A stretch of DNA of 42,760 bases from a virus, in the IMG/VR virus record IMGVR_UViG_3300046517_000581, positions 1 to 42,760 of that record; one strand, given 5' to 3'. Under the pieces are notes generated by a model. That model worked only from the letters and a program-made list of their open reading frames with translations, was not told the DNA's origin and searched no databases. Positions 7,760 through 42,760 of this stretch are shown piece by piece. Positions within the stretch are counted from its first letter, which is position 1, and the number at the start of each line of letters is the position of its first letter. The position numbers and the translations under genes were made by a program.

Positions 7760-7823
7760 AAAGATTCCTATTTATCTTTAAATCATGGTATAAAGCCATC
7801 TTTAAATGTAGGAATCTTTAAAT
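7760..7823 (+). promoter_or_regulatory. Partition-gene leader with inverted and direct repeats
   Basis: A perfect 11-bp inverted repeat (AAAGATTCCTA at 7760-7770, TAGGAATCTTT at 7809-7819) brackets three direct copies of ATCTTTAAAT at 7774-7783, 7798-7807 and 7814-7823. The last two are 16 bp apart, and the third overlaps the start codon of the ParA-like gene; the ribosome site AGGA lies inside it. ParG-type ribbon-helix-helix proteins bind repeats just upstream of their own parF gene, so this is a candidate operator and partition site. No convincing -35/-10 pair was identified. Confidence 0.6.
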
Positions 7824-8460
7824 GATCATCTCTTTATTGCAGGAGAAGGGTGGGGCGGGTAAAACCACCATTGTTATTAACGTCGCTAAGGCTTTTAAAG
7901 ACCTTGGATATAAGGTATTACTGGTGGATTCCGACCCGCAAGGATCTGCGCGGGATTGGCATACCAGCAATGACGGTGACGTACTCGATGTAATCGGTTT
8001 AGATCGTCCAACGTTAGATAAAGATATATCCCGTTTTAGACGAGAATACGATTTTATCTTTATTGACGGCGCACCTCATCTTTCTACGATGGCTGCAAAA
8101 ACGATTATATGTTCAGATGTGACCTTAATCCCCGTGCAACCCTCCCCATACGATGTGTGGGCGTCAAAGTCCTTAGTCGATTTAATTAAACAGCGTCAAG
8201 AGATAACAGACGGTAAACCAAAAGCCGCTTTTATAATTAGCCGACAAATTACTCAAACGAATATCGGCAAAGAGGTGCGTGAGGTATTGGAAGAATATGG
8301 ATTGCCCGTATTAAAGCACGGTACTTTCCAAAGAGTCGTATACCCTGAGACCGCCGCTATCGGACAGACTGTGATGAACCAATGTAATAAAAACCCAGCC
8401 CGACAAGAGATTGAACTATTAGCCCGTGAAATTTTGGAGTTTTGTAATGGCCACGCTTAA
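7822..8460 (+). CDS. ParA/ParF-like partition ATPase
   Basis: 212 residues, the size of type Ib plasmid partition ATPases such as ParF (~206). It shows the deviant Walker A KGGAGKTT at residues 9-16 with the signature lysine at 9, the A' motif VLLVDSDPQGSA at 33-44, and Walker B FIFIDGAP at 77-84. The family binds DNA nonspecifically in the ATP state and moves plasmid cargo over the nucleoid. It lacks the N-terminal HTH domain of type Ia ParA, so autoregulation should fall to the partner at 8447-8659, whose start overlaps its 3' end. A regulatory MinD-like role is possible but the RHH neighbour argues for partition. Confidence 0.88.
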   Translation: MIISLLQEKGGAGKTTIVINVAKAFKDLGYKVLLVDSDPQGSARDWHTSNDGDVLDVIGLDRPTLDKDISRFRREYDFIFIDGAPHLSTMAAKTIICSDVTLIPVQPSPYDVWASKSLVDLIKQRQEITDGKPKAAFIISRQITQTNIGKEVREVLEEYGLPVLKHGTFQRVVYPETAAIGQTVMNQCNKNPARQEIELLAREILEFCNGHA

Positions 8461-9337: not shown

Positions 9338-11605
9338 TTATTTCGTGTAGCGTTTAGCCCGCCAACCGCCGCTCGCCTTAACTGGCCAATTTTTAGCCCA
9401 CGAAGGTAAGGTCGCCATAATATCTTCAAACTCCTTGATTGACCCGTAGTTTTCTGGGATTTCAGCCACGATTTCGTCATGAACGTGTAGAACCACGGGA
9501 TAAGATGCTTTTTCAAGGTTAACGATGGCATTCGCCAAAATATCGCGGGCTGTGGCTTGGACTACGTTTTCGGTTAATTTACCGCCATAGGTATTCATTC
9601 TGATCCAGCCCACACCGCCATTTTTAGGGTTAGTATTCCATCCCTCAAAACTAAGGGACATAGTGCCTTCCCGTCGGTCGCTAGGGGCTAATCGAGGTTT
9701 ATGATAGGTAAGATAACGCCCCGATAAAAGCTGACAATACAAAACATCACGGACTACCGTATAAGATAAACCCCGGTATTCGAATTTAACGCCGGGGTTC
9801 AAAGTAGCTTGAATGGCAGCACCCTCGAGCCCGTAGTATTCATCACGTCGCCAATTGGGTTGACCACCCCACATTTCGACGATCTTAGGGCTAGCATCAC
9901 GCCATGCTAAGATAGCGGTTTTAATCTCATCGTCGGTAAAAAATTCATCCGCGCCAAACTGTTTCCACGCGCCTATCCAGCCTTGATATCCAGACGCTAA
10001 TTCCGCGACCTTACCTACTTTTTTACGCATTGGATGATGTTGGCCGGTAGTAGCTTTATATAAAATAAATTCATTAAAGTCGAGGCCAGTTATTTTAGAT
10101 GCAGACATTTCGTAAATCTTACCGTGCGTGCGAAAGACCTCCATGCGCCATTCTTCTCCCGCGAGGGCTGCTAATACGACCGCCTCAATAGCGCTATAGT
10201 CTGAGCATATTAAATCGTGGCCGGGAGCCGCAATAAATAACCCGCGTAAGCAGCTAGAGATGGTAGCAATTGCATCTCCCCAAAAATATTCTATACAGGC
10301 CAGATTACCTGATTTAATAGTTTCGAAGGCATCCTCTACGGCTTGCGGATTCCATTCTTTAATTTCGCGAGTACTGTAGCAACCACACCATGGGCATACG
10401 AGTATGTTTTTACCAAAGTACCGACTACAGCTTTCTTTAGTGCATTGAGTAACTTCAATACCGCTATTTGGCAAGTTTTGGGGTTGGGCTCCAGTACCAG
10501 CAGCACGACCAGTCCTAGCAGAATGATATATAAATAAGTCATGAACGCGTCCCTTTTTCGTGAGAGTATTCATCATAGAATACAATTTTTTAACCGCAGC
10601 GGAACCAATTAATTCTCTAATTTCGAGCGCCCGACGGACGTCTACAGGAAGATGTGCAATCTTTAATAACTCCGTTACTGTATCAGAATCAAGGCTAGGT
10701 GCGGAAACGCCGTATTCCATCATCCAAACTCGCATTTTTTGTATTTCGGATGCAGCAGAAACGCGACCTTTTGTCAAGATCAATAATTCAGCGTTATATT
10801 TTTTATGAGCATCGGCCACAATATGGAGACAGTTTATAATAGCCGATCGATCCATCTGTACGCCGCGAAAGTTAATCGCCTGATCGCATAACCAAAACTC
10901 AAGCTCGCTCGGGGTTAGGTCGGGTACAAGGCTTGATATTTCGGCCTCCGCTTCAATATCTCTTAAGTTATATTGATATAACGCCATTGCATCTTTCGGG
11001 TCTTCAAGCGGGTGAATTCGAATGCGGCTATCCGTTTTCGTTGGATTACGCGGCACACTGAATTTATCCAATAACCGTTTGCCTTCTTTATCTTTCTGGT
11101 TATGCGTATTGAGAATATTACCAACTACGGCAAGGCCGCCCGGCATTGCGTAAGCATGAGATTTCGCTTTCGCACAACGGAATTGTGACTGCAATATAGA
11201 AGGCCATCCATATTTCGGTACGCAAATGTTAACCCATACCCAATGCTCAAACGCGCTATACCAAGCTTCAATTAAACCACCCGCAATAACATGCTGAAAT
11301 AAATCGAGAGGCGCTGGTTCCGTAGGTATCCATAGGCGTTTACCCCGGCCGTCCTTTAGGTCATAAGCGCAGCTTAAAACTTCCGCATCGGGATGTTCGG
11401 TATAGACGGCGGCACCCACGGTGGGCAAACCTTTAAGACGTCCACCCAAAGGTGGTTCGAATTTTCGGGTGTTAATGTTCCACGTATAACCTGCCGGGCT
11501 ATAAGTTTCAAAATCTAGGTCGGCGATAATAGTGGATACACCTAGGCCAGCGATGAGTTGTGTGCCAGCTTTTAAGTCACTTAATTTCGGTGGGAGAGGT
11601 ATCAT
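9338..11605 (-). CDS. Family A DNA polymerase with 3'-5' exonuclease domain
   Basis: 755 residues. DEDD exonuclease: DFET at residues 31-34, a second motif near YSAFEH 116-121, and YNLRDIEAE at 212-220. Polymerase: RTGRAAG..QNLP at 364-379, motif A DYSAIEAVVLA at 469-479, motif B around KKVGKVAELASGYQG at 528-542, and motif C HVHDE at 707-711. All expected carboxylates are present, so it should be an active replicative enzyme. A cysteine cluster at 388-409 (C..C, then CPWC) forms a probable zinc-ribbon insert between QNLP and motif A. It ends the operon driven from 12750-12778 and overlaps the upstream small gene by 4 bp. Confidence 0.95.
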   Translation of the reverse strand: MIPLPPKLSDLKAGTQLIAGLGVSTIIADLDFETYSPAGYTWNINTRKFEPPLGGRLKGLPTVGAAVYTEHPDAEVLSCAYDLKDGRGKRLWIPTEPAPLDLFQHVIAGGLIEAWYSAFEHWVWVNICVPKYGWPSILQSQFRCAKAKSHAYAMPGGLAVVGNILNTHNQKDKEGKRLLDKFSVPRNPTKTDSRIRIHPLEDPKDAMALYQYNLRDIEAEAEISSLVPDLTPSELEFWLCDQAINFRGVQMDRSAIINCLHIVADAHKKYNAELLILTKGRVSAASEIQKMRVWMMEYGVSAPSLDSDTVTELLKIAHLPVDVRRALEIRELIGSAAVKKLYSMMNTLTKKGRVHDLFIYHSARTGRAAGTGAQPQNLPNSGIEVTQCTKESCSRYFGKNILVCPWCGCYSTREIKEWNPQAVEDAFETIKSGNLACIEYFWGDAIATISSCLRGLFIAAPGHDLICSDYSAIEAVVLAALAGEEWRMEVFRTHGKIYEMSASKITGLDFNEFILYKATTGQHHPMRKKVGKVAELASGYQGWIGAWKQFGADEFFTDDEIKTAILAWRDASPKIVEMWGGQPNWRRDEYYGLEGAAIQATLNPGVKFEYRGLSYTVVRDVLYCQLLSGRYLTYHKPRLAPSDRREGTMSLSFEGWNTNPKNGGVGWIRMNTYGGKLTENVVQATARDILANAIVNLEKASYPVVLHVHDEIVAEIPENYGSIKEFEDIMATLPSWAKNWPVKASGGWRAKRYTK

Positions 11606-17817: not shown

Positions 17818-20160
17818 ATGGATTTTTTACCAAAGGCTTTACAAGCGTTAGGAAATTTTAATCAATTCATCGTTTATGTTCTATCTCCCAGTAAAACTCG
17901 TGTCGGTAAAACAGATAAATTCCCAATTGACTTTCGAAACGGCCAGATTGCAAATGCACATGATCCTAATATTTGGTTATCGGCACCTTTCGCGATAGCC
18001 TGTGCAAAAGGTTTCGGTGCGAATTATGGCGTAGGTTTCGTATTTACGGAATCAGACCCATTTTGGTTTCTTGACATCGACGATTGTTTAGATGCGAATA
18101 CTAATGATTGGTCAGCGACCGCGAAAAATCTCGTGGCTGCTTTCCCGGGCGCAGCTGTTGAAGTCTCTAGTTCGGGTCGTGGGTTGCATATTATTGGGAG
18201 CGGCCAGTCGCCTTCACACAGTTGTAAGAACGCTGCGCTTAAACTCGAATTTTATACTACCGGACGTTTCGTTGCGCTAACTGGAACTTACGCGCAAGGC
18301 GACGCAGCGCTCGATTGTTCGGTTGTTCTTCCTTGGCTTGTCGATAATTATTTCATCCAAAAAACAAACTCGAATCAGACTGATTGGACGGATCATCCTT
18401 GCGAGGGCTGGAAAGGTAACACCGATGACCATGAACTTATTTCACGCGCTTTACGGTCACAATCCAGTCGTTCTGTCTTTGGGGGTGGGATTGCTTTCAA
18501 AGATTTATGGGAAGCCAACGTCGAGGCGTTAGCGCGTGCTTATCCCGATCCTAACCGAGAGTGTGGTTACGATGAAAGCGCAGCTGACGCAGGGCTCGCA
18601 CAACGATTAGCATTTTGGACAGGTAATGATTGCGAACGAATGAAACGATTAATGCTGCAGTCGGCGTTATCCCGCGATAAATGGAACCGAGAGGACTATC
18701 TCCCGCGAACAATTCTCGGTGCTTGCGGGAGACAACTTGAGTGGTTAAACGACAAGTCCCCTCAAGATATCGTAAAATCTGAACAAACACAAGGGCAGAA
18801 ACCACGCGCTTCTCGTGTTACAGGCACAACCTTTCTCAACATCGAACAGCAGCAGGATATTTTCGAGGGCTGCGTTTATATTGCCGACGATCATAAAATC
18901 CTCGTACCCGGCGGGTATACTCTTAATCCCGAGCGGTTCAAAGTTATGTACGGCGGGTATAGCATGCCTATGGATATCGGCAATGAGCGGGTCACACGCA
19001 ACGCGTGGGAGGCGTTTACCGAATCCCAAGCCCTACGGCACCCCCGCGCCGATACCTCCTGTTTTAAGCCCGATTTAGCCCCCGGGGAAGTTATTATAAA
19101 AGATGGCCAACGATTAGCCAATATTTACTGGCCGGTCACTACGCCGCGAGTACAAGGCGACCCATCGCGTTTTCTTTGGCATATCGAGAAACTATTCCCA
19201 GACCCTACGGATCAAGCGATTATTCTTTCCTATCTCGCCGCATTAATTCAACACAAGGGCGTTAAGTTTCAATGGGCTCCTCTAATCCAAGGTGTGGAAG
19301 GTAACGGTAAAACTTTCTTTACCCGTTGCATTGCATACGCAATCGGCGATCGTTATAGCCATTTCCCGAAAGCGGCTGAAATCGCCAGCAAGTTTAATGA
19401 TTGGTTATACGCAAAGATATTTATCGGTGTTGAGGATATTTACGTCCACGATTCTAAGTACGAAGTCATGGAAACCTTAAAGCCAATGTTAACCAGCGAA
19501 CGTCAGGAAATTGAACCGAAGGGCGGTGCAAAACTCACCCGGGATATATGCGCGAATTTCCTAATCAATACCAACCATAAGGACGGCTTACGTAAAACCC
19601 AAAATGATCGACGTTTCGCCCCCTTTTACACCGCGCAGCAATCTGTGGCTGATCTCAAACGCGATCGTATGTTAGGTGAGTATTTCCCCGAACTTTACAA
19701 TTGGGCTATCCGCACGCAAGGTTTCGCTATTATCGCGGATTACCTTGAGAACTATGCCATTCCCTATAGCCTAAATCCCGCAACAGGTTGTAAGCGTGCT
19801 CCCATTACAAGCTCAACAGAAGCTGCGATCGAACACGGTATGGGCGGCATTGAACTGGAAATACAAGAAGCAATGGAGCAGGGCGTACCGGGCTTTAAGA
19901 ACGGATGGGTATCTTCAATGGCACTCGATAAATTATTAATCCGATTGCATGCGGGACGTCGAATACCCATTAACAAGCGCCGGGAACTTATGCAATCGCT
20001 CGGTTATGACATACATCCGAACCTTAAAGAAGGGCGCACTACGGGTATTGTGCAACCCGATGGCGGCAAACCGCGTTTATATATTAAAATGGATCATAAG
20101 GATAATAATCTGATGGGCGCAAGTGAGATCGCGAAAGCCTATTCAGAAGCACAGAAGTAG
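17818..20160 (+). CDS. Primase-polymerase/SF3 helicase fusion (DUF5906)
   Basis: 780 residues. N-terminal prim-pol-like domain: FWFLDIDDC at 82-90 with the acidic pair, SSSGRGLH at 117-124, and LKLEFYTTGRFVALTG near 142-158. C-terminal DUF5906 helicase: Walker A GVEGNGKT at ~492-499, Walker B FIGVEDIY around 534-542, motif C LINTNHKDG near 581-590. It would prime and unwind at the origin. AAGGA lies 7 bases upstream of its ATG. The last 20 residues are polar. No stop-codon or frameshift anomaly seen. The RepA-like fusion suits both phage and plasmid replicons. Confidence 0.93.
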   Translation: MDFLPKALQALGNFNQFIVYVLSPSKTRVGKTDKFPIDFRNGQIANAHDPNIWLSAPFAIACAKGFGANYGVGFVFTESDPFWFLDIDDCLDANTNDWSATAKNLVAAFPGAAVEVSSSGRGLHIIGSGQSPSHSCKNAALKLEFYTTGRFVALTGTYAQGDAALDCSVVLPWLVDNYFIQKTNSNQTDWTDHPCEGWKGNTDDHELISRALRSQSSRSVFGGGIAFKDLWEANVEALARAYPDPNRECGYDESAADAGLAQRLAFWTGNDCERMKRLMLQSALSRDKWNREDYLPRTILGACGRQLEWLNDKSPQDIVKSEQTQGQKPRASRVTGTTFLNIEQQQDIFEGCVYIADDHKILVPGGYTLNPERFKVMYGGYSMPMDIGNERVTRNAWEAFTESQALRHPRADTSCFKPDLAPGEVIIKDGQRLANIYWPVTTPRVQGDPSRFLWHIEKLFPDPTDQAIILSYLAALIQHKGVKFQWAPLIQGVEGNGKTFFTRCIAYAIGDRYSHFPKAAEIASKFNDWLYAKIFIGVEDIYVHDSKYEVMETLKPMLTSERQEIEPKGGAKLTRDICANFLINTNHKDGLRKTQNDRRFAPFYTAQQSVADLKRDRMLGEYFPELYNWAIRTQGFAIIADYLENYAIPYSLNPATGCKRAPITSSTEAAIEHGMGGIELEIQEAMEQGVPGFKNGWVSSMALDKLLIRLHAGRRIPINKRRELMQSLGYDIHPNLKEGRTTGIVQPDGGKPRLYIKMDHKDNNLMGASEIAKAYSEAQK

Positions 20161-23706: not shown

Positions 23707-24942
23707 ATGGAAATAATCATGCGGCCGATTGCCGATCTTAAGAATTATGATAAAAATGCACGCACCCATAGTGCCGCGCAGATCAAAGAATTGGTCGATT
23801 CTATAAAGATTTATGGATTTCTTGATCCTATCGAAATTGCTCAAGACTTGACCATTATCTCAGGACATGCAAGGCTTGCTGCTGCGTTAGAATTAGGGTT
23901 AACCCACGTACCTACCATCTGCCATCATCACCTTACTAAAACGCTTAAAAAGGGCTATACGCTAGCTGCAAACCGTATTGCCCTAAGCGCGGGATGGGAT
24001 GGAGGAATACTTAAAGATGAATTCACCGATCTCATAGAGGAGGAGTTTGATTTAAGGCTAACAGGATTTACCCAAGATGAAATTGACGACTATCTTAATC
24101 CAGATATTTTAAACGATAACTTGACAGACGGCGATGATTGTGAAATGGGAGAAGGGCAAGAGGCGGTTACGCAACGGGGCGATGTATGGATTTTAGGCGA
24201 TCATCGTTTGCGTTGCGGCGACAGTACGTTTGTTGACGACGTTCAAGCTTTACTCGCCGGAAACGCGCCGCACCTTATGATTACCGATCCTCCGTACGGC
24301 GTTGAGTATGATCCAAGCTGGCGTGACGGCGCTGACTTGGGGGTGGGTGAACGCTCCCGGGGAAAAGTAAAAAACGACAATATCGTCGATTGGACGGACG
24401 CTTATTCGCTTTTCGAAGGTGATGTCGCGTACGTATGGCATGCCGGGAAATTTACGCATATCGTCGCGAAAAACCTCGAGGATTGTGGCTTCGACATCGT
24501 TAGCCAGATTATATGGGCGAAGCAACATTTCGCACTTTCACGCGGCGATTACCATTGGCAACACGAGCCATGTTGGTACGTTGTTAGGAAAGGCAAGAAA
24601 CATCACTGGCGAGGTGCACGCGATCAAAGTACGTTATGGGAAATTAAAAATAATAATTCGTTTGGTAATTCAGACAAAGAAGAAACGTGGGGACACGGAA
24701 CACAAAAGCCAATCGATTGCATGCTAACGCCACTTGAAAACAACAGTCGCGCTAATGACTATGTATACGATCCTTTTGGCGGTAGCGGCACAACTTTAAT
24801 TGCTTGCGAAAAAACAGGACGTCGTTGCTTGATGATGGAACTAGACGAGAAGTATTGTGATATCATTGTACGAAGATGGCAAAAGTTTAGTGGTAAGAAA
24901 GCAATACTAGAAGAAACAGGAGAACCCTTCGATGGCAACTAA
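23707..24942 (+). CDS. ParB-N domain fused to DNA methyltransferase
   Basis: 411 residues. Residues 1-~95 are a ParB/sulfiredoxin-like N-terminal domain (RPIADLKNYDKNARTHS then ISGHARLAAALELG). The methyltransferase has motif IV DPPY at 194-197 and the SAM-binding DPFGGSGTT at 355-363, in the order IV before I expected of beta-class N4-cytosine/N6-adenine enzymes. A neighbouring ERS/HW-rich target recognition stretch lies between. No restriction enzyme is adjacent, so it is an orphan, perhaps protecting phage DNA or modifying packaging sites. Overlaps the TerS-like gene by 11 bp. Confidence 0.92.
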   Translation: MEIIMRPIADLKNYDKNARTHSAAQIKELVDSIKIYGFLDPIEIAQDLTIISGHARLAAALELGLTHVPTICHHHLTKTLKKGYTLAANRIALSAGWDGGILKDEFTDLIEEEFDLRLTGFTQDEIDDYLNPDILNDNLTDGDDCEMGEGQEAVTQRGDVWILGDHRLRCGDSTFVDDVQALLAGNAPHLMITDPPYGVEYDPSWRDGADLGVGERSRGKVKNDNIVDWTDAYSLFEGDVAYVWHAGKFTHIVAKNLEDCGFDIVSQIIWAKQHFALSRGDYHWQHEPCWYVVRKGKKHHWRGARDQSTLWEIKNNNSFGNSDKEETWGHGTQKPIDCMLTPLENNSRANDYVYDPFGGSGTTLIACEKTGRRCLMMELDEKYCDIIVRRWQKFSGKKAILEETGEPFDGN

Positions 24943-29255: not shown

Positions 29256-30866
29256 ATGCCATTACCATTTTCGTTTAATTTTAAAAACCCGGATTACGTT
29301 GAGGTCTTTCAATGGCGACTAGAAAGACTCAACCGTATCCGAGCTACCCCGGGTATTCTTCCAGCGTTAAAAAAATACTATCAAGACAATGTTGCTCAAT
29401 TTATTATCGATTGGGGGACTACTTACGATCCACGTAACGTAGATCGGGGTTTACCGGCGCTCGTTCCGTTTATTTTATTTCCTCGACAAGAAGAATTCGT
29501 CCATTGGTTTATGGAACGGTGGCGGTCACGCGAACCGGGGCTTGCAGATAAATCTCGCGATATGGGGATGAGTTGGTTGACGGTAAGTATTGCCTGTACG
29601 ATCTGCCTATTCATCGAAGGCGTGGCCGTAGGATTCGGTTCGCGTAAACAGGAATACGTAGATAAAATCGGCGATCCTAAGTCTCTTTTGTACAAAGGAA
29701 GGCGTTTTGTAACAAACATACCCCGAGAATTTAGGGGAACATGGGAAGAAAGCAAGCATGCGCCGCACATGCGTATTCAATTCCCCGATACAAATTCAAT
29801 CATATCTGGCGAGGCGGGCGATGGGATCGGACGCGGCGACCGTGCAAGTTTCTATTTTGTGGATGAGGCGGCGTTCATTCCACGCCCAGAATTGGTTGAA
29901 GCGTCACTTTCCGAAACAACGAATTGTCGTATCGATATCTCGACACCTTGCGGTATGAATAATCCTTTTGCCCGCAAACGATTTAGTGGAAAGATTAATA
30001 CGTTCAGTTTGCATTGGCGCGACGATCCACGTAAAGACGATGAGTGGTATCAAAAACGATGCGATTACATTGACGATCCTGTTATTATTGCTCAGGAATT
30101 AGACTTAGATTATTCAGCGTCCGTTGCGGGCGTAGTCATTCCTGCAGCTTGGGTTAACGCAGCGATAGACGCCCATGTTAAGCTTAATATCGAACCCAAG
30201 GGAATGCGTAAGATGGCATTAGACGTTGCAGACCAAGGACATGATAAAAACGCCGTGTGCGGGCGATATGGGATTTTAGTTGAGTACGTAGAATCGTGGT
30301 CGGGTAAAGGAGAGGATATTTATGCGTCGGTTGAAAAAGCTTTTACACTCTGCGATGTTCTCGGCTATTCTGATCTATTTTATGATGCTGATGGCTTGGG
30401 AGCAGGTGTGCGAGGAGATGCGCGAGTAATTAACGCTAAACGCGAGATTAAAATTCACGTCGTACCGTTTCATGGTTCGGGTGCGGTTATTGATCCCGAA
30501 GGCGATCCGTTTCGTGGAAGTCGCGAATTTAAGACAAACGAAAAGGGACGTACTAATGACGATTTTTTCGCTAACTTAAAAGCGCAAGGATACTGGGCTT
30601 TACGACGGCGGTTTCAGTTAACTTACCGCGCGGTAGTTGAGAAACTCCCCTTTATAGAAGATGATATTATCTCAATATCGAGCCATATTCCCGAATTGCG
30701 TAAATTAGTTTCTGAATTATCGCAACCGACCTACTGGCCGAATGAAGTCGGAAAGATCATAATTGATAAATCGCCAGATGGGGCGCGTTCACCGAACTTA
30801 GCGGACGCACTCATGATTGCGTATGCACCCTATAAAAAACCGGCAAGAGGATTTTTCAGTGATTAA
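29256..30866 (+). CDS. Terminase large subunit
   Basis: 536 residues. ATPase: Walker A-like KSRDMGMSW at 99-107, Walker [10 protein letters not shown] at 199-207, and STPCG coupling motif near 229-233. Nuclease: [11 protein letters not shown] at 320-330, FYDADGLG at 375-382, and [12 protein letters not shown] at 512-523, the acidic cluster of an RNase H-fold nuclease. The combination predicts headful or cohesive-end packaging. It follows the coiled-coil gene by 5 bp and overlaps the portal gene by 8 bp. No inteins seen. Confidence 0.95.
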
Positions 30867-32415
30867 AAAACTATGGAATAGATTTAAGAAACCCGAGAAA
30901 ATTGCTGAAGCCGCGCCGAAACGTGAAAAGCCGCGTCAGGTCTTTAGTACGAATGATATTTTCGATCCTTCCCACACGTTAGATAAGCTGGAAGCGATAG
31001 CACAGAAAACCTTTCAGAATAGCATACATCCCGAATTAAAAATCGCATTAGATGCCGCGGCAGCTGATAAAACGGCGAGTTTTTCGTATGCCATGGATAA
31101 CATGACGAATATTAAATCCGCGTTTTTCGGTAATGAACTTATTCCAAACGGTCAGCTGCTTTGGTACGCAAACCAAGGATTCATCGGGTATCAGTTATGT
31201 GCGATGCTGGCGCAGCAATGGTTGATTTCCAAAAGCTGTTTAATGCCCGCCGAAGATGCCACGCGCAAAGGTTACGAGATTACGGTTAACGACGGAAGTG
31301 AAGTGGAACCCGACGTTTTAGACAAAATGCGAAAGCTAGATGTCGAATACAATATCACTAAAAATCTTATTCAGTTTATTCAATTTGGGCGCGTTTTTGG
31401 TATTCGTATCGCAATGTTTCAGGTCGAATCCGACGATCCTGAATATTATTTTAAACCGTTTAATCCGGACGGCGTTAAGCCCGGAAGTTACAAAGGCATA
31501 TCGCAAATAGACCCCTATTGGGTTACGCCCCAACTCGATCCAGAATCGGCGGGTAATCCTTCGAGCATTCATTTTTATGAGCCAACATGGTGGAACATTG
31601 CGGGCAAACTTATCCATCGTTCGCATCTTGTCGTTTATCGTACTGAAGAGGTCGCAGATATCTTAAAACCCTCTTACATTTATGGGGGTGTGCCTATTCC
31701 TCAGAAAATTTATGAGCGTGTATACGCAGCCGAGCGAACCGCTAACGAAGCGCCTATGCTTGCCCTTACAAAGCGTACCGACGTCATCAATGTTGATTTA
31801 GCGCAAGCATTAGGGCAAGAGATAAATTTCACTCAGCGTATTCAAAAATGGGCGCAATTTAGAGATAACTACGGTATTAAAGCGCTTGGCCTTGACGAAA
31901 CGATGCAGCAATTCGATACATCGCTCGCCGATTTAGACGCGGTTATCATGACTCAGTACCAACTTGTGGCTGCTGCGGCAAATGTACCAGCGGTTAAGTT
32001 ATTAGGAACATCTCCTAAAGGCTTTAATACCACAGGTGAATTCGAGGAGTCTAGCTACCACGAAATGTTAGAAAGCTTACAAGCGCATGCGTTATCTCCG
32101 CTTCTCGAAAGGCATCATTTACTTTTGATTCGTTCGGAGATTGTTCCCGAGTTTAATATCGCACCTTTCGATACGACTATTACTTGGAAACCCTTAGACG
32201 CTATGACAGGAAAAGAACTTGCAGAACTCAATAAACTTAAAGCGGATACGGGTACGGTTCTAACGGCTACGGGCGCAATTGATGGAAACGACGAGCGCGA
32301 GCGAATCATTAACGATCCAGATAGTGGCTATACAGGATTGGTTAATGAGAATCCTGAAACAGAAGAACCGGCAGAAGAGATTCTAAGTGAACCAGAAGGT
32401 GGTGGAGTGATTTAA
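30859..32415 (+). CDS. Portal protein (DUF1073 family)
   Basis: 518 residues from a GTG at 30859 (AAGAGG at 30845-30850, 8 bases upstream); an upstream TTG at 30817 lies inside the terminase gene. Residues ~70-180 ([29 protein letters not shown]) and ~330-400 ([22 protein letters not shown]) match the DUF1073 portal family, one of the common myovirus/siphovirus portals. It lies between TerL and head morphogenesis genes. The family is also named in databases for an anti-CBASS relation; that name does not imply activity here. Confidence 0.88.
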
Positions 32416-32417
32416 AA

Positions 32418-32507
32418 GCAACCGAAGCACATGGCGTGCATGGGTAAACGGGCTTGGGTACTTTGGACACCTCCCGCCTAAAACTGGTTCGATTCCAGTC
32501 GGTTGCA
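32418..32507 (+). tRNA. tRNA-like element, anticodon uncertain (perhaps UUG)
   Basis: A 7-bp acceptor stem (GCAACCG 32418-32424 with CGGTTGC 32500-32506) and a perfect T arm (ACTGG, TTCGATT, CCAGT; 32483-32499) close a 90-base element. Between them the anticodon arm can only be drawn with flaws: GGGT (32456-32459) with ACCT (32469-32472), an A.C mismatch, and a CTTTGGA loop giving anticodon UUG (Gln). The D-like hairpin GCAC/GTGC (32427-32439) has only a 5-base loop. No CCA is encoded. It could be a degenerate tRNA or a tRNA-mimic. Confidence 0.55.
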
Positions 32508-32540: not shown

Positions 32541-32807
32541 ATGAATTTTAGTGAAGCTTTAATAGCAATAAAAGCGGGTTGTAAATTAGCGCGTACATCT
32601 TGGAATACCGAAGGTTTAGCTTTTGTTTATCTTGTTCATGGCTCGAAATTTAAAGTTAACCGCGCTCCACTAAATGTCATATTTAAAATGGATACTGAAG
32701 TAACGTATCGTCCGCATTTAGATTGCAAAATGCCGGATGGAACTTGCGGAACATGGACGGCTGATGATAATGACTTATTGGCAGAAGATTGGGAAATTAT
32801 CGAGTAA
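32541..32807 (+). CDS. tad2: Tad2-type anti-Thoeris protein (DUF2829)
   Basis: 88 residues. The N-terminal NFSEALIAIKAGCKLARTSWN, the middle VNRAPL, and the C-terminal LLAEDWEIIE match the DUF2829 family. In that family Tad2 of SPO1 and others binds the 1''-3' cyclic-ADP-ribose signal of Thoeris, and some members also sequester CBASS nucleotides, as tetramers. No enzymatic motif is expected. It lies after the tRNA-like element inside the structural gene block, with AGGAG 9 bases before its ATG. Activity here is inferred from family membership. Confidence 0.85.
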   Translation: MNFSEALIAIKAGCKLARTSWNTEGLAFVYLVHGSKFKVNRAPLNVIFKMDTEVTYRPHLDCKMPDGTCGTWTADDNDLLAEDWEIIE

Positions 32808-33136
32808 TGTGTGAATGCACCCCCAGTAATCAGACGACGGTTTGTAGTCGTTGTCCTTACAGATTACGAGTTAAATGGGGATTTACGAAAGGGAAAACAA
32901 AAATGGTAATTGACCCGAATGACGATAATGTAAACCACCCGTTGCATTACAATTCTAGTAAAGCTGAATGCCCGGGTTGCGAAAGACGAATTGAATGCAT
33001 CGATATTACCCGCCACATGAATTTTAATATCGGGAATGCTTTTAAGTATCTATGGCGTTTCGAACATAAAGGCGGCAATGAAGATTTAAAGAAAGCTTTA
33101 TGGTATATCACTAACGAATTAGAGAAAAAACGCTAA
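32807..33136 (+). CDS. DUF3310 protein (T7 gp1.7-related) with N-terminal zinc-like motif
   Basis: 109 residues from the ATG that overlaps the Tad2 stop (TAATG). The C-terminal ~70 residues NVNHPLHYNSSKAECPGCERRIECIDI then NAFKYLWRFEHKGGNEDLKKALWYI match DUF3310, related to T7 gp1.7, a nucleotide-binding/kinase protein. The N-terminal 25 residues hold MCEC and VCSRC, an extra metal-binding look. A shorter start at 32903 has only a weak site. Confidence 0.78.
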   Translation: MCECTPSNQTTVCSRCPYRLRVKWGFTKGKTKMVIDPNDDNVNHPLHYNSSKAECPGCERRIECIDITRHMNFNIGNAFKYLWRFEHKGGNEDLKKALWYITNELEKKR

Positions 33137-34080
33137 TGACTAAGCCGCCGCTAACGAAACAGAAGCGAAAATGGGTTGCGAATCGCAACGTCACCCTGCG
33201 CGGCACGGGTTTAAATTATAACGTAAGTCAACAAGCGAAGTATAAAGACGCTTTGAATAAACTAGTTAAGCAAATGGCAGAGGAAGCTAACAAACAAATC
33301 CAACGCCTTTTTAACGGGGAAATTGCGGACGATTATTTCGATCAGCAGAAAGAAGCAGCGTCTATAGACGCCAAGTCCGTTATGGTATCTTTAGACACCA
33401 ACTCGAATGCGGTATCTTTAGATACTAGCATCGCCAGTAAAGCTCGGAAATTAATGAACGCGCTGACATCTAAGTTTCAGCAATTATTTAATGCGAAAGC
33501 GCCGATACTTGCCGCATCAATGATTAAAGGCGCGTCCGACGTTAGTAAATCAAATCTACATAGCAGTCTTAAACAATTAAGCGGCGGCCTATCGTTGAAA
33601 ACCGGCGTAGTTCCTAAAGGAATGGAGGACGTTTCAAAAGCCCTAATCGCCGAAAACGTATCGCTTATCAAGTCAATCCCCCAGCAATATTTTAAAGATG
33701 TGACCGGGGCGGTAATGCGGTCGATTACCGTAGGCCGCGGTCTAGCCGATTTATTGCCAGAAATTAAAAAATACCAAGGGCAAACCCAACGACGCGCTAA
33801 AAATCTATCGCTAGATCAAACCCGTAAGGCGTATAATTCGATTAATAAGCAGCGCATGCAATCGATCGGCGTTAAGCAGTTTGAATGGGTACATAGCGGC
33901 GGTGGGCAAAAACCCCGAGCGTCGCATCTTAAAATTAGCGGCCACATATTTAATTTTGAGAATTTGGAAGCCCAGCAAGCGGCGCTCGGGGTTCCCGAAA
34001 AAGACCAAGGAATCCCGGGCTACCCAATTAATTGTCGATGCACCATGACGCCTGTGATAAACTTTGGTGATGAAAGTTAA
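33136..34080 (+). CDS. Head morphogenesis protein (SPP1 gp7/Mu gpF-like)
   Basis: 314 residues. The C-terminal ~70 residues carry the MuF signature: FEWVHSGGGQKPRASHLKISG, then GIPGYPINCRCTMTPVI. The rest is helical. In related phages this minor capsid protein is needed for head assembly or ejection. TAATG coupling with the DUF3310 gene. Confidence 0.9.
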   Translation: MTKPPLTKQKRKWVANRNVTLRGTGLNYNVSQQAKYKDALNKLVKQMAEEANKQIQRLFNGEIADDYFDQQKEAASIDAKSVMVSLDTNSNAVSLDTSIASKARKLMNALTSKFQQLFNAKAPILAASMIKGASDVSKSNLHSSLKQLSGGLSLKTGVVPKGMEDVSKALIAENVSLIKSIPQQYFKDVTGAVMRSITVGRGLADLLPEIKKYQGQTQRRAKNLSLDQTRKAYNSINKQRMQSIGVKQFEWVHSGGGQKPRASHLKISGHIFNFENLEAQQAALGVPEKDQGIPGYPINCRCTMTPVINFGDES

Positions 34081-36195: not shown

Positions 36196-37317
36196 ATGAT
36201 GAATCGAGCAAGTGTTGAACGTTCTTATTTATCCCCTAAGAATGTTAGGTCGTTGGAGAATTTTAAAGCCGAAGAATACCAGTCTTTAAATAAGATCGGT
36301 ATTAACTTAGGCCGACGCGAAGTAGGTATGATGATGCGCGGTCAGGCGGCAATGGATGCAATGGCGCAAGATGCCCTGCAGCCAACCGTGACAACCGCAA
36401 GTACAGGTACTCCGGTTCAATTTCTCCAAAACTGGCTACCCGGTTTTGTTTTTGTTGTGACCGCCGCCCGTAAGATCGATGATATTATCGGCCTTATGAT
36501 TACCGGCGCGTGGGAAGATGAACAGATCGTGCAAGGTATTTTAGAACGTGTGGGTTCCGGTCAGACATACGGAGACTATACTAACGTTCCTTTAGCTAGC
36601 TGGAATACTAACTTCAACTATCGTACCGTCGTACGTTTTGAAGAAGGTCTGAAAGTCGGCGTTTTAGAATCCGCTCGCGCAGCCCGTCAGTTAGTCGACG
36701 ACGCTGGTATGAAACGTGAAGCTGCTGCGTTGAACCTCGAAATTAACCGAAATGCAGTCGGTTTCTTCGGGTTTAACTCTGGTGACAATAACACCTATGG
36801 CTATCTGAATGATCCCGGTCTCGGAGCCTATGTTGTGGTGGCCACGGGTGCCTCAACCTTTACGACTTGGTCAACTAAGACATTCTTGGAAATTTGCAAG
36901 GATATCCGAACAGCCATCGTAGCGTTGCGTACCCAATCCCAAGATACAATCGATCCTGAAAAAGTCGATTTAACATTGGCGATTGCGACAGACGCGGTAG
37001 ATTGGCTTTCTACAACTTCCGATTTCGGTATTTCGGTTCGCGATTGGTTGCGTGAAGCTTACCCACGGATTCGTGTTGTATCCGCCCCACAGTTAAATAA
37101 CGCATATACCAGTGATAACGTATTTGTACTCCATGCTGACGTTATTAACGATATGTCGACAGACGGTGGACGCGTTTGGATTCAACCCGTACCCACTAAG
37201 TTTCAAGTCTTAGGTGTACAGCAATTAGCGAAAGCTTACGAAGAAGATTATTCAAACGCGACAGCGGGTGCTATGTGTAAACGCCCCTATGCCGTAGTGC
37301 GATACTTCGGAATTTAA
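36196..37317 (+). CDS. Major capsid protein (DUF2184)
   Basis: 373 residues. VFVVTAARKIDDIIGLMITGAWEDEQIVQG, YTNVPLASWNTNFNYRTVVRFEEGLKVG and the C-terminal FQVLGVQQLAKAYEEDYSNATAGAMCKRPYAVVRYFG match the DUF2184 HK97-fold capsid family. Expressed after the cement gene with an AAGGA site. Two ATGs at the start are equally placed. Confidence 0.93.
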   Translation: MMNRASVERSYLSPKNVRSLENFKAEEYQSLNKIGINLGRREVGMMMRGQAAMDAMAQDALQPTVTTASTGTPVQFLQNWLPGFVFVVTAARKIDDIIGLMITGAWEDEQIVQGILERVGSGQTYGDYTNVPLASWNTNFNYRTVVRFEEGLKVGVLESARAARQLVDDAGMKREAAALNLEINRNAVGFFGFNSGDNNTYGYLNDPGLGAYVVVATGASTFTTWSTKTFLEICKDIRTAIVALRTQSQDTIDPEKVDLTLAIATDAVDWLSTTSDFGISVRDWLREAYPRIRVVSAPQLNNAYTSDNVFVLHADVINDMSTDGGRVWIQPVPTKFQVLGVQQLAKAYEEDYSNATAGAMCKRPYAVVRYFGI

Positions 37318-41917: not shown

Positions 41918-42342
41918 TGGGATTGTTAGAACCCAAAGAGGTGACTATTGATGGACGTAACTTTGTTTTATCGAAATTTCCAGCCGTTGCGGGCAGGGAA
42001 ATTATATCAAAGTACCCCATTTCAGCTATGCCGAAGTTAGGCGATTACAAAGTTAATGAAGAAACAATGTTTAAGTTAATGAAATTTGTAGGCGTTAAAC
42101 AAGGCGATACGATCCTTTGTCTAACTACTCCGGCGCTGATTGATAACCACACTAGAAGCTGGGAAACTTTGATGAAAGTCGAGTGGGCTATGATCGAGTA
42201 CAATTGTACTTTTTTTCAGAACGGGGCGCTCTCGACTTCCTTAGAAGATACCGCCCCGAAAGTCCTAGCGTGGATTTCCAAAATATCGACGGCTTTATCG
42301 GCGCGATCGTTGCGGACGGAAAAGCAACCCTCAACGAGTTAA
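41914..42342 (+). CDS. Tail assembly chaperone, short (0-frame) form
   Basis: 142 residues. It lies between tube and tape measure, the universal position of the frameshifted chaperone pair (lambda gpG/gpGT, Mu 41/42). Begins [27 protein letters not shown] and ends after a basic [12 protein letters not shown] once past the frameshift site. Reading on in this frame stops at 42342. Confidence 0.85.
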
Positions 42343-42455
42343 AAACTATCTATACACTAGAGGATGCTTTTTTGATGTGGGAGGTCATCGCTGTTACTCG
42401 GTATAACGAGTATTTAGCAATGGAACATGCGAAGAAGCAGCAAAAGGGTAGATAA
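41914..42455 (+). CDS. Tail assembly chaperone, long form by -1 frameshift
   Basis: Ribosomes slipping -1 on T TTT TTT (42210-42216) continue with TCA GAA CGG and produce a C-terminal extension of ~80 residues ([18 protein letters not shown] to KKQQKGR) ending at 42455. Total ~180 residues. The extension contains [20 protein letters not shown] and a helical [14 protein letters not shown] typical of GT-type extensions that bind the tape measure. The TAA stop overlaps the tape-measure ATG. Confidence 0.85.
42210..42216 (+). other. Slippery heptamer for -1 frameshift
   Basis: T TTT TTT in the zero frame, followed by CAG. It permits both tRNAs to re-pair in the -1 frame. The -1 frame is open from before the site to 42455, whereas the zero frame ends at 42342. 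Confidence 0.8.
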
Positions 42456-42760
42456 TGAATATCATAGAAAAATTTTATATCCTCTTTAAAAGTGACGCAT
42501 CCGAAGTCAAAAAGGGTGCGGACGAAGCTAAAAAATCAACGCTTGATCTCGATGCATCTTTAAAAAATGTTAACAAAGGCACTGAAAAAGTAGGCGCTTC
42601 GTTCTTAGAATTAGCTAAGGCCGGAGCATCTTTTCTAGGCGTGGCTGCTGCCATTCATGAAGTGTTTTCGGGTATTACAGGAGCGAATGATTATGCACTT
42701 AGTCTTGGTGATGCATCTCGTGCTTTTGGTATCAACGCTGCTGAGTTGGACGTATGGGGT
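42237..42760. repeat. Right copy of the 524-bp terminal redundancy
   Basis: Matches bases 1-524. Differences cluster between 42335 and ~42665; the first ~100 and last ~90 bases match exactly. Only about two amino acid changes result (Ala to Ser and Asn to Ala near codon 28-35 of the tape measure), so the difference is under purifying selection, not sequencing noise. Confidence 0.9.
42455..42760 (+). CDS. Tape measure protein, 3'-truncated second copy
   Basis: First 102 codons of the tape measure, cut by the window end. The amino acid sequence is nearly the same as 219-524 but with many synonymous changes and KKSTLDLDASLKN in place of KKATLDLDNSLKN. It belongs to the overlap rather than to a second gene, unless a true duplication is shown. 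Confidence 0.8.
   Translation, partial: MNIIEKFYILFKSDASEVKKGADEAKKSTLDLDASLKNVNKGTEKVGASFLELAKAGASFLGVAAAIHEVFSGITGANDYALSLGDASRAFGINAAELDVWG

Follow-up and report, generated by a model that had tools for sequence, protein, structure and literature searches.

A candidate anti-Thoeris Tad2 gene carried as cargo between the portal and Mu-F-like head morphogenesis genes of an IMG/VR virus record

Proteins of the Tad2 family are homotetramers with two ligand pockets. SPO1 Tad2 reportedly counters type I Thoeris through its binding of gcADPR, and ModTad2 reportedly counters type II Thoeris through its binding of His-ADPR (PMC13299392). In SPO1 Tad2 the gcADPR pocket is made up of the loop between β1 and β2, the loop between β3 and β4, strand β4, the loop between β4 and α3, and helix α3 (reviewed in PMC12043709). 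HgmTad2 and SptTad2 bind cyclic dinucleotides, at a site that reportedly needs a long insertion (PMC12043709), and SPO1 Tad2, which is free of this insertion, does not bind 3'3'-cGAMP (PMC11722364). Structures have been deposited for ModTad2 (MoTad2, from a Myroides odoratus prophage; PDB 9eib with hisADPR and 8v3e apo), SPO1 Tad2 (Gp34.65; PDB 8sme, 8smf and 8smg), and HgmTad2/AcrIIA7 and SptTad2 (PDB 8kbi-8kbm, 8wjd and 9kzr).

The stretch of DNA analysed here (the window) is a 42,760-base IMG/VR virus record. The gene tad2 is located on the plus strand at positions 32541–32807 and consists of an ATG start and 88 codons, with a Shine-Dalgarno-like GGAG 5' of the start. Pfam family PF11195 (Tad2-like, formerly DUF2829) matched the product along model positions 1–73 of 73, with an E-value of 2.2e-17 and a score of 63.8 bits (cut-off 25); searches with PADLOC and NCBIfam gave no match for it. 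A sequence search of the PDB gave seven matches at E ≤ 0.001, all of them Tad2/AcrIIA7 family members, the top match being ModTad2 (E 1.6e-15, 44% identity), with the others far behind. The AlphaFold2 monomer model, for which the input alignment comprised 71 sequences (window Tad2 and homologues from viral contigs), has a mean pLDDT of 95.2 and a pTM of 0.78. When this model was compared with the PDB using Foldseek, the 24 chains matched at E ≤ 1e-3 were all Tad2/AcrIIA7, and the best was 9eib, the ModTad2-hisADPR complex (TM 0.81/0.83). The initial annotation of the product as an 88-residue DUF2829/Tad2-family protein is confirmed by the full-length Pfam match, the PDB sequence matches and the predicted fold; tad2 is a real gene and, as observed directly in its sequence and predicted fold, a member of the Tad2 family.

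ModTad2 is the closest solved relative of window Tad2; the two are of similar length and neither has the long insertion. ModTad2 nevertheless falls in a different subclade, grouping with L015, L013 and L011, and has PYLA where window Tad2 has PHLD; the WNGKGMF loop and S75 are changed in the window protein. SPO1 Tad2 shares the fold and is likewise insertion-free, but is only ~27% identical to window Tad2, binds gcADPR and keeps WNGKNMF and PSQTD. HgmTad2/AcrIIA7 and SptTad2 share the family and the core fold and, unlike window Tad2, have the long insertion to which cyclic-dinucleotide binding is attributed; in the alignment SptTad2 has ~9–10 extra residues between the middle strands, where window Tad2 has none.

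These comparisons bear on what window Tad2 could bind. CBASS had been put forward alongside Thoeris as a target. HgmTad2 and SptTad2 bind cyclic dinucleotides (PMC12043709), and window Tad2 might likewise bind such nucleotides and block CBASS. This part of the proposal did not hold up: the insertion credited with the site (PMC12043709) is missing from the window protein, and SPO1 Tad2, which lacks it too, fails to bind 3'3'-cGAMP (PMC11722364), so that a role against CBASS is improbable. Inhibition of Cas9, as suggested by two solved family sequences labelled AcrIIA7 or inhibitor of type II CRISPR-Cas, is more improbable still, because the AcrIIA7-labelled chains are much more distant from window Tad2 (E 4e-6 and 4e-4) and contain the insertion, and because several of the deposited structures of the family are nucleotide complexes. 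More likely than cyclic dinucleotides, among the known ligands, are hisADPR, the signal of type II Thoeris, or gcADPR, that of type I.

We consider it likely, on the strength of family membership and predicted fold, that tad2 encodes a functional sponge for an ADP-ribose-type signal that a host TIR enzyme (Thoeris) produces, and that it is carried as cargo in the head operon. Window Tad2 is predicted to fold as Tad2 and would probably form the homotetramer of the family. In an infected cell it would bind the signal of the host TIR enzyme and leave it uncleaved, and with the signal sequestered the Thoeris effector would stay off. The anti-Thoeris function is inferred from membership of the family.

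Window Tad2 sits in an abundant subfamily of uncharacterised phage DUF2829 proteins (e.g. L112–L188 and L007), referred to here as the PHIDMK subfamily, with the pattern GSxFxVNRxPLxxIxPEGTxIxYxPHIDMK. Viral contigs yielded at least 600 matching stretches, and no member was found among the solved structures in the PDB copy searched. The initial annotation described the family signature as kept throughout the length of the protein, which is true of the profile match; at the level of residues, 8 of the 36 columns conserved at ≥85% in the 71-sequence alignment are changed (mean for the members 2.1, median 1) and there is a one-residue insertion. The changes at near-invariant sites include G20S, G23T, K24E, M26L, G51D and S75D, and these six, together with the extra residue, set window Tad2 apart from the PHIDMK subfamily. 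Position 20 is glycine in all 70 other homologues and position 75 is serine in 68 of the 70; G20, G23, K24 and S75 are kept in nearly all of them. The extra residue, A27, lies within the conserved WNGKGMF loop, where none of the 70 homologues has an insertion. Those solved Tad2 sequences that the alignments show in full retain WNGK and the serine at position 75. All residues invariant in the 71-sequence alignment (R18, W72, D78, D83 and W84) are retained in window Tad2, as are the core family residues F3, A6, K11, G13 and W21. Overall, window Tad2 is an ordinary family member, in which a few positions that are normally fixed show unusual changes.

In the window Tad2 model residue 75 directly precedes the helix of residues 76–80, and is therefore probably within the region that lines the gcADPR pocket in SPO1 Tad2 (PMC12043709); whether the loop of residues 20–27 belongs to the pocket depends on the strand numbering. 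Being near the predicted pocket, the S75D change would introduce acidic charge that could weaken the binding of a diphosphate. Since near-invariant sites are changed, ligand binding by window Tad2 cannot be assumed. Loss of near-invariant residues from probable pocket regions could mean that the protein is decaying and has lost nucleotide binding, which we regard as rather unlikely: the reading frame is intact with a good start site, the predicted fold is confident, the start and stop codons overlap with those of the neighbouring genes and dN is far below dS. The latter was estimated against the tad2 of the nearest relative, L119, where dN is 0.29 and synonymous sites are almost saturated; the Mu-F genes of the same pair have a similar dN (0.27). 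By these values Tad2 appears to be under purifying selection.

The same changes could instead mark a sponge with a shifted ligand, in which the pocket, altered by the changed WNTEGLAF loop and by S75D, takes a different or rarer TIR product, or lets the protein escape surveillance systems that sense sponges. The number of changed conserved columns in a coding sequence still under purifying selection is in keeping with this reading, as is the long end branch of window Tad2 in the Tad2 tree (0.88 vs 0.34 for its sister L119). Drift, however, could equally account for the changes, and Panoptes, a described sponge-sensing system, reportedly responds only slightly to one of four tested Tad2s; we consider a shifted ligand possible but unlikely, and a sponge for an ADP-ribose-type Thoeris signal remains the preferred reading.

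The genes bordering the insert were identified by Pfam matches and are those named in the initial annotation. Upstream is the portal gene (30817–32415, plus strand; PF06381, 289 bits; PHROG 4660/146) and downstream the gene for a Mu-F-like head morphogenesis protein (33136–34080, plus strand; PF04233, 48.7 bits; PHROG 324). The second gene of the insert encodes a DUF3310 protein of 109 amino acids, with its likely start at ATG 32807 (32807–33136, plus strand; PF11753, 45.7 bits). The stop codon of tad2 overlaps the DUF3310 start as TAATG, and the DUF3310 stop overlaps the Mu-F start in the same way, such that each pair is translationally coupled; a simple consensus scan of the insert found no internal promoter or terminator. 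Expression of tad2 would probably be together with the head genes, in a translationally coupled stretch.

Eighty relatives were fetched using the portal protein, of which 30, several of them near-duplicates, had a portal identity of ≥56% and a readable portal/Mu-F junction. The junction is empty in 25 of the 30, where the genes abut or overlap, holds a Tad2 in four (L022, L029, L034 and L043) and another open reading frame in one (L019). With the junction mostly empty among relatives, the earlier description of tad2 as part of a small insertion of cargo among the virion genes is right, and the insertion is observed directly; tad2 would have been acquired as cargo at this junction. No DUF3310 protein match is encoded in any of the relatives' loci, and none of the scanned open reading frames in the slot of more distant relatives has a recognisable anti-defence domain.

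Between the portal gene and tad2 there is a tRNA-like element (32418–32507, plus strand). That such an element lies beside tad2 was borne out, as a marginal match: RF00005 scored 30.0 bits against a gathering threshold of 29, with an E-value of 1e-4 when only 211 bases were searched, and ARAGORN and a default Rfam run found no tRNA at these positions. The element has a 7-bp acceptor stem (GCAACCG/CGGTTGC) and a canonical T arm with the loop TTCGATT. Its middle is atypical, with 34 nt replacing 11 model positions around the anticodon arm, and its folding z-score against shuffled sequences is -1.75. It is probably a degenerate tRNA. No Rfam match was found in the six relatives' loci searched. 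The 3' half was also considered as an element shared among phages, which was ruled out as it has no exact match in viral contigs.

L119 (TerL 66%, portal 61% and Mu-F 65% identical) has a 64%-identical Tad2 one gene further downstream, between the Mu-F and head protease genes, and in L111, which is an unrelated phage, a Tad2 of 60% identity is encoded between the scaffold and major head protein genes. Window Tad2 forms a clade with these two proteins (support 100/96). The Tad2s of the portal/Mu-F slot are not grouped together, and their acquisition in a single event was not supported, as the tree calls for at least two changes on well-supported (starred) branches, in a tree that is coarse and of low resolution, being built on only 88 columns. 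Tad2 has probably entered this junction on more than one occasion. Beyond the four slot copies, no Tad2 was found in 46 records of the relatives, many of which are fragments. Three of the slot Tad2s (L029:4283-4537, L034:7526-7783 and L043:1219-1473) have lost the WNG motif (GLPENC, GWPDGV) and represent another divergent branch. Salmonella phage TR2 (L191) and Vibrio phage 1F273_PE002 (L015) each have two nearby genes annotated as DUF2829 or as Thoeris anti-defence, and these pairs are possibly sponges with different ligands.

The major capsid protein, encoded ~3.4 kb downstream of tad2 (36196–37317, plus strand; PF09950), is what triggers two Thoeris systems that have been studied (PMC12578639). 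A sponge made with the head genes would therefore not come too late. Placement in the head block was considered as a general rule for Tad2 and was rejected, as the immediate neighbours are mixed across 73 non-redundant homologues: portal (about four), ribonucleotide reductase (four) and major head protein (two), and also helicases and SSB. Among named phages SpaA1, EF2-1 and Vibrio phage 1F273_PE002 have Tad2 in the head block, and in the remainder it is in replication, terminase, lysis or other regions. Head placement is common to the three closest Tad2s (those of the window, L119 and L111), which is suggestive only. A more speculative idea, to which we give little credence, is that the sponge is tied to the trigger, by being made with the major capsid protein, or to the virion, by being packaged and injected so as to act at once, and that the altered residues tune it for a signal beyond the known ligands.

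Several other features of the window were observed. Its ends (1–524 and 42237–42760) align without gaps across 524 bp at 93.5% identity (34 mismatches), and the record may therefore wrap round a circular or terminally redundant genome that is nearly complete and shows strain variation, or have diverged terminal repeats. A ParA-like ATPase is encoded at 7822–8457, in a phage whose head and tail genes are of myovirus type, and may point to plasmid-like maintenance. A 780-amino-acid protein with NrS-1 polymerase-type HBD and DUF5906 domains (17818–20160) is a candidate primase-polymerase/helicase, present in addition to a family A DNA polymerase (9338–11605). The DNA methylase at 23707–24942 has an N-terminal ParB-like domain just under the Pfam cut-off.

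With tad2, a group of phages related to E217 and Pam3 by their portal and cement proteins gains a well-placed candidate for an anti-Thoeris gene. The distribution of Tad2 among the relatives suggests that the portal/Mu-F junction is a repeated landing site for this family. The Tad2s of the window and L119 make up a natural pair, 64% identical and with the changed loop and S75D in the window protein only, which would offer a direct route to the residues that determine ligand choice.
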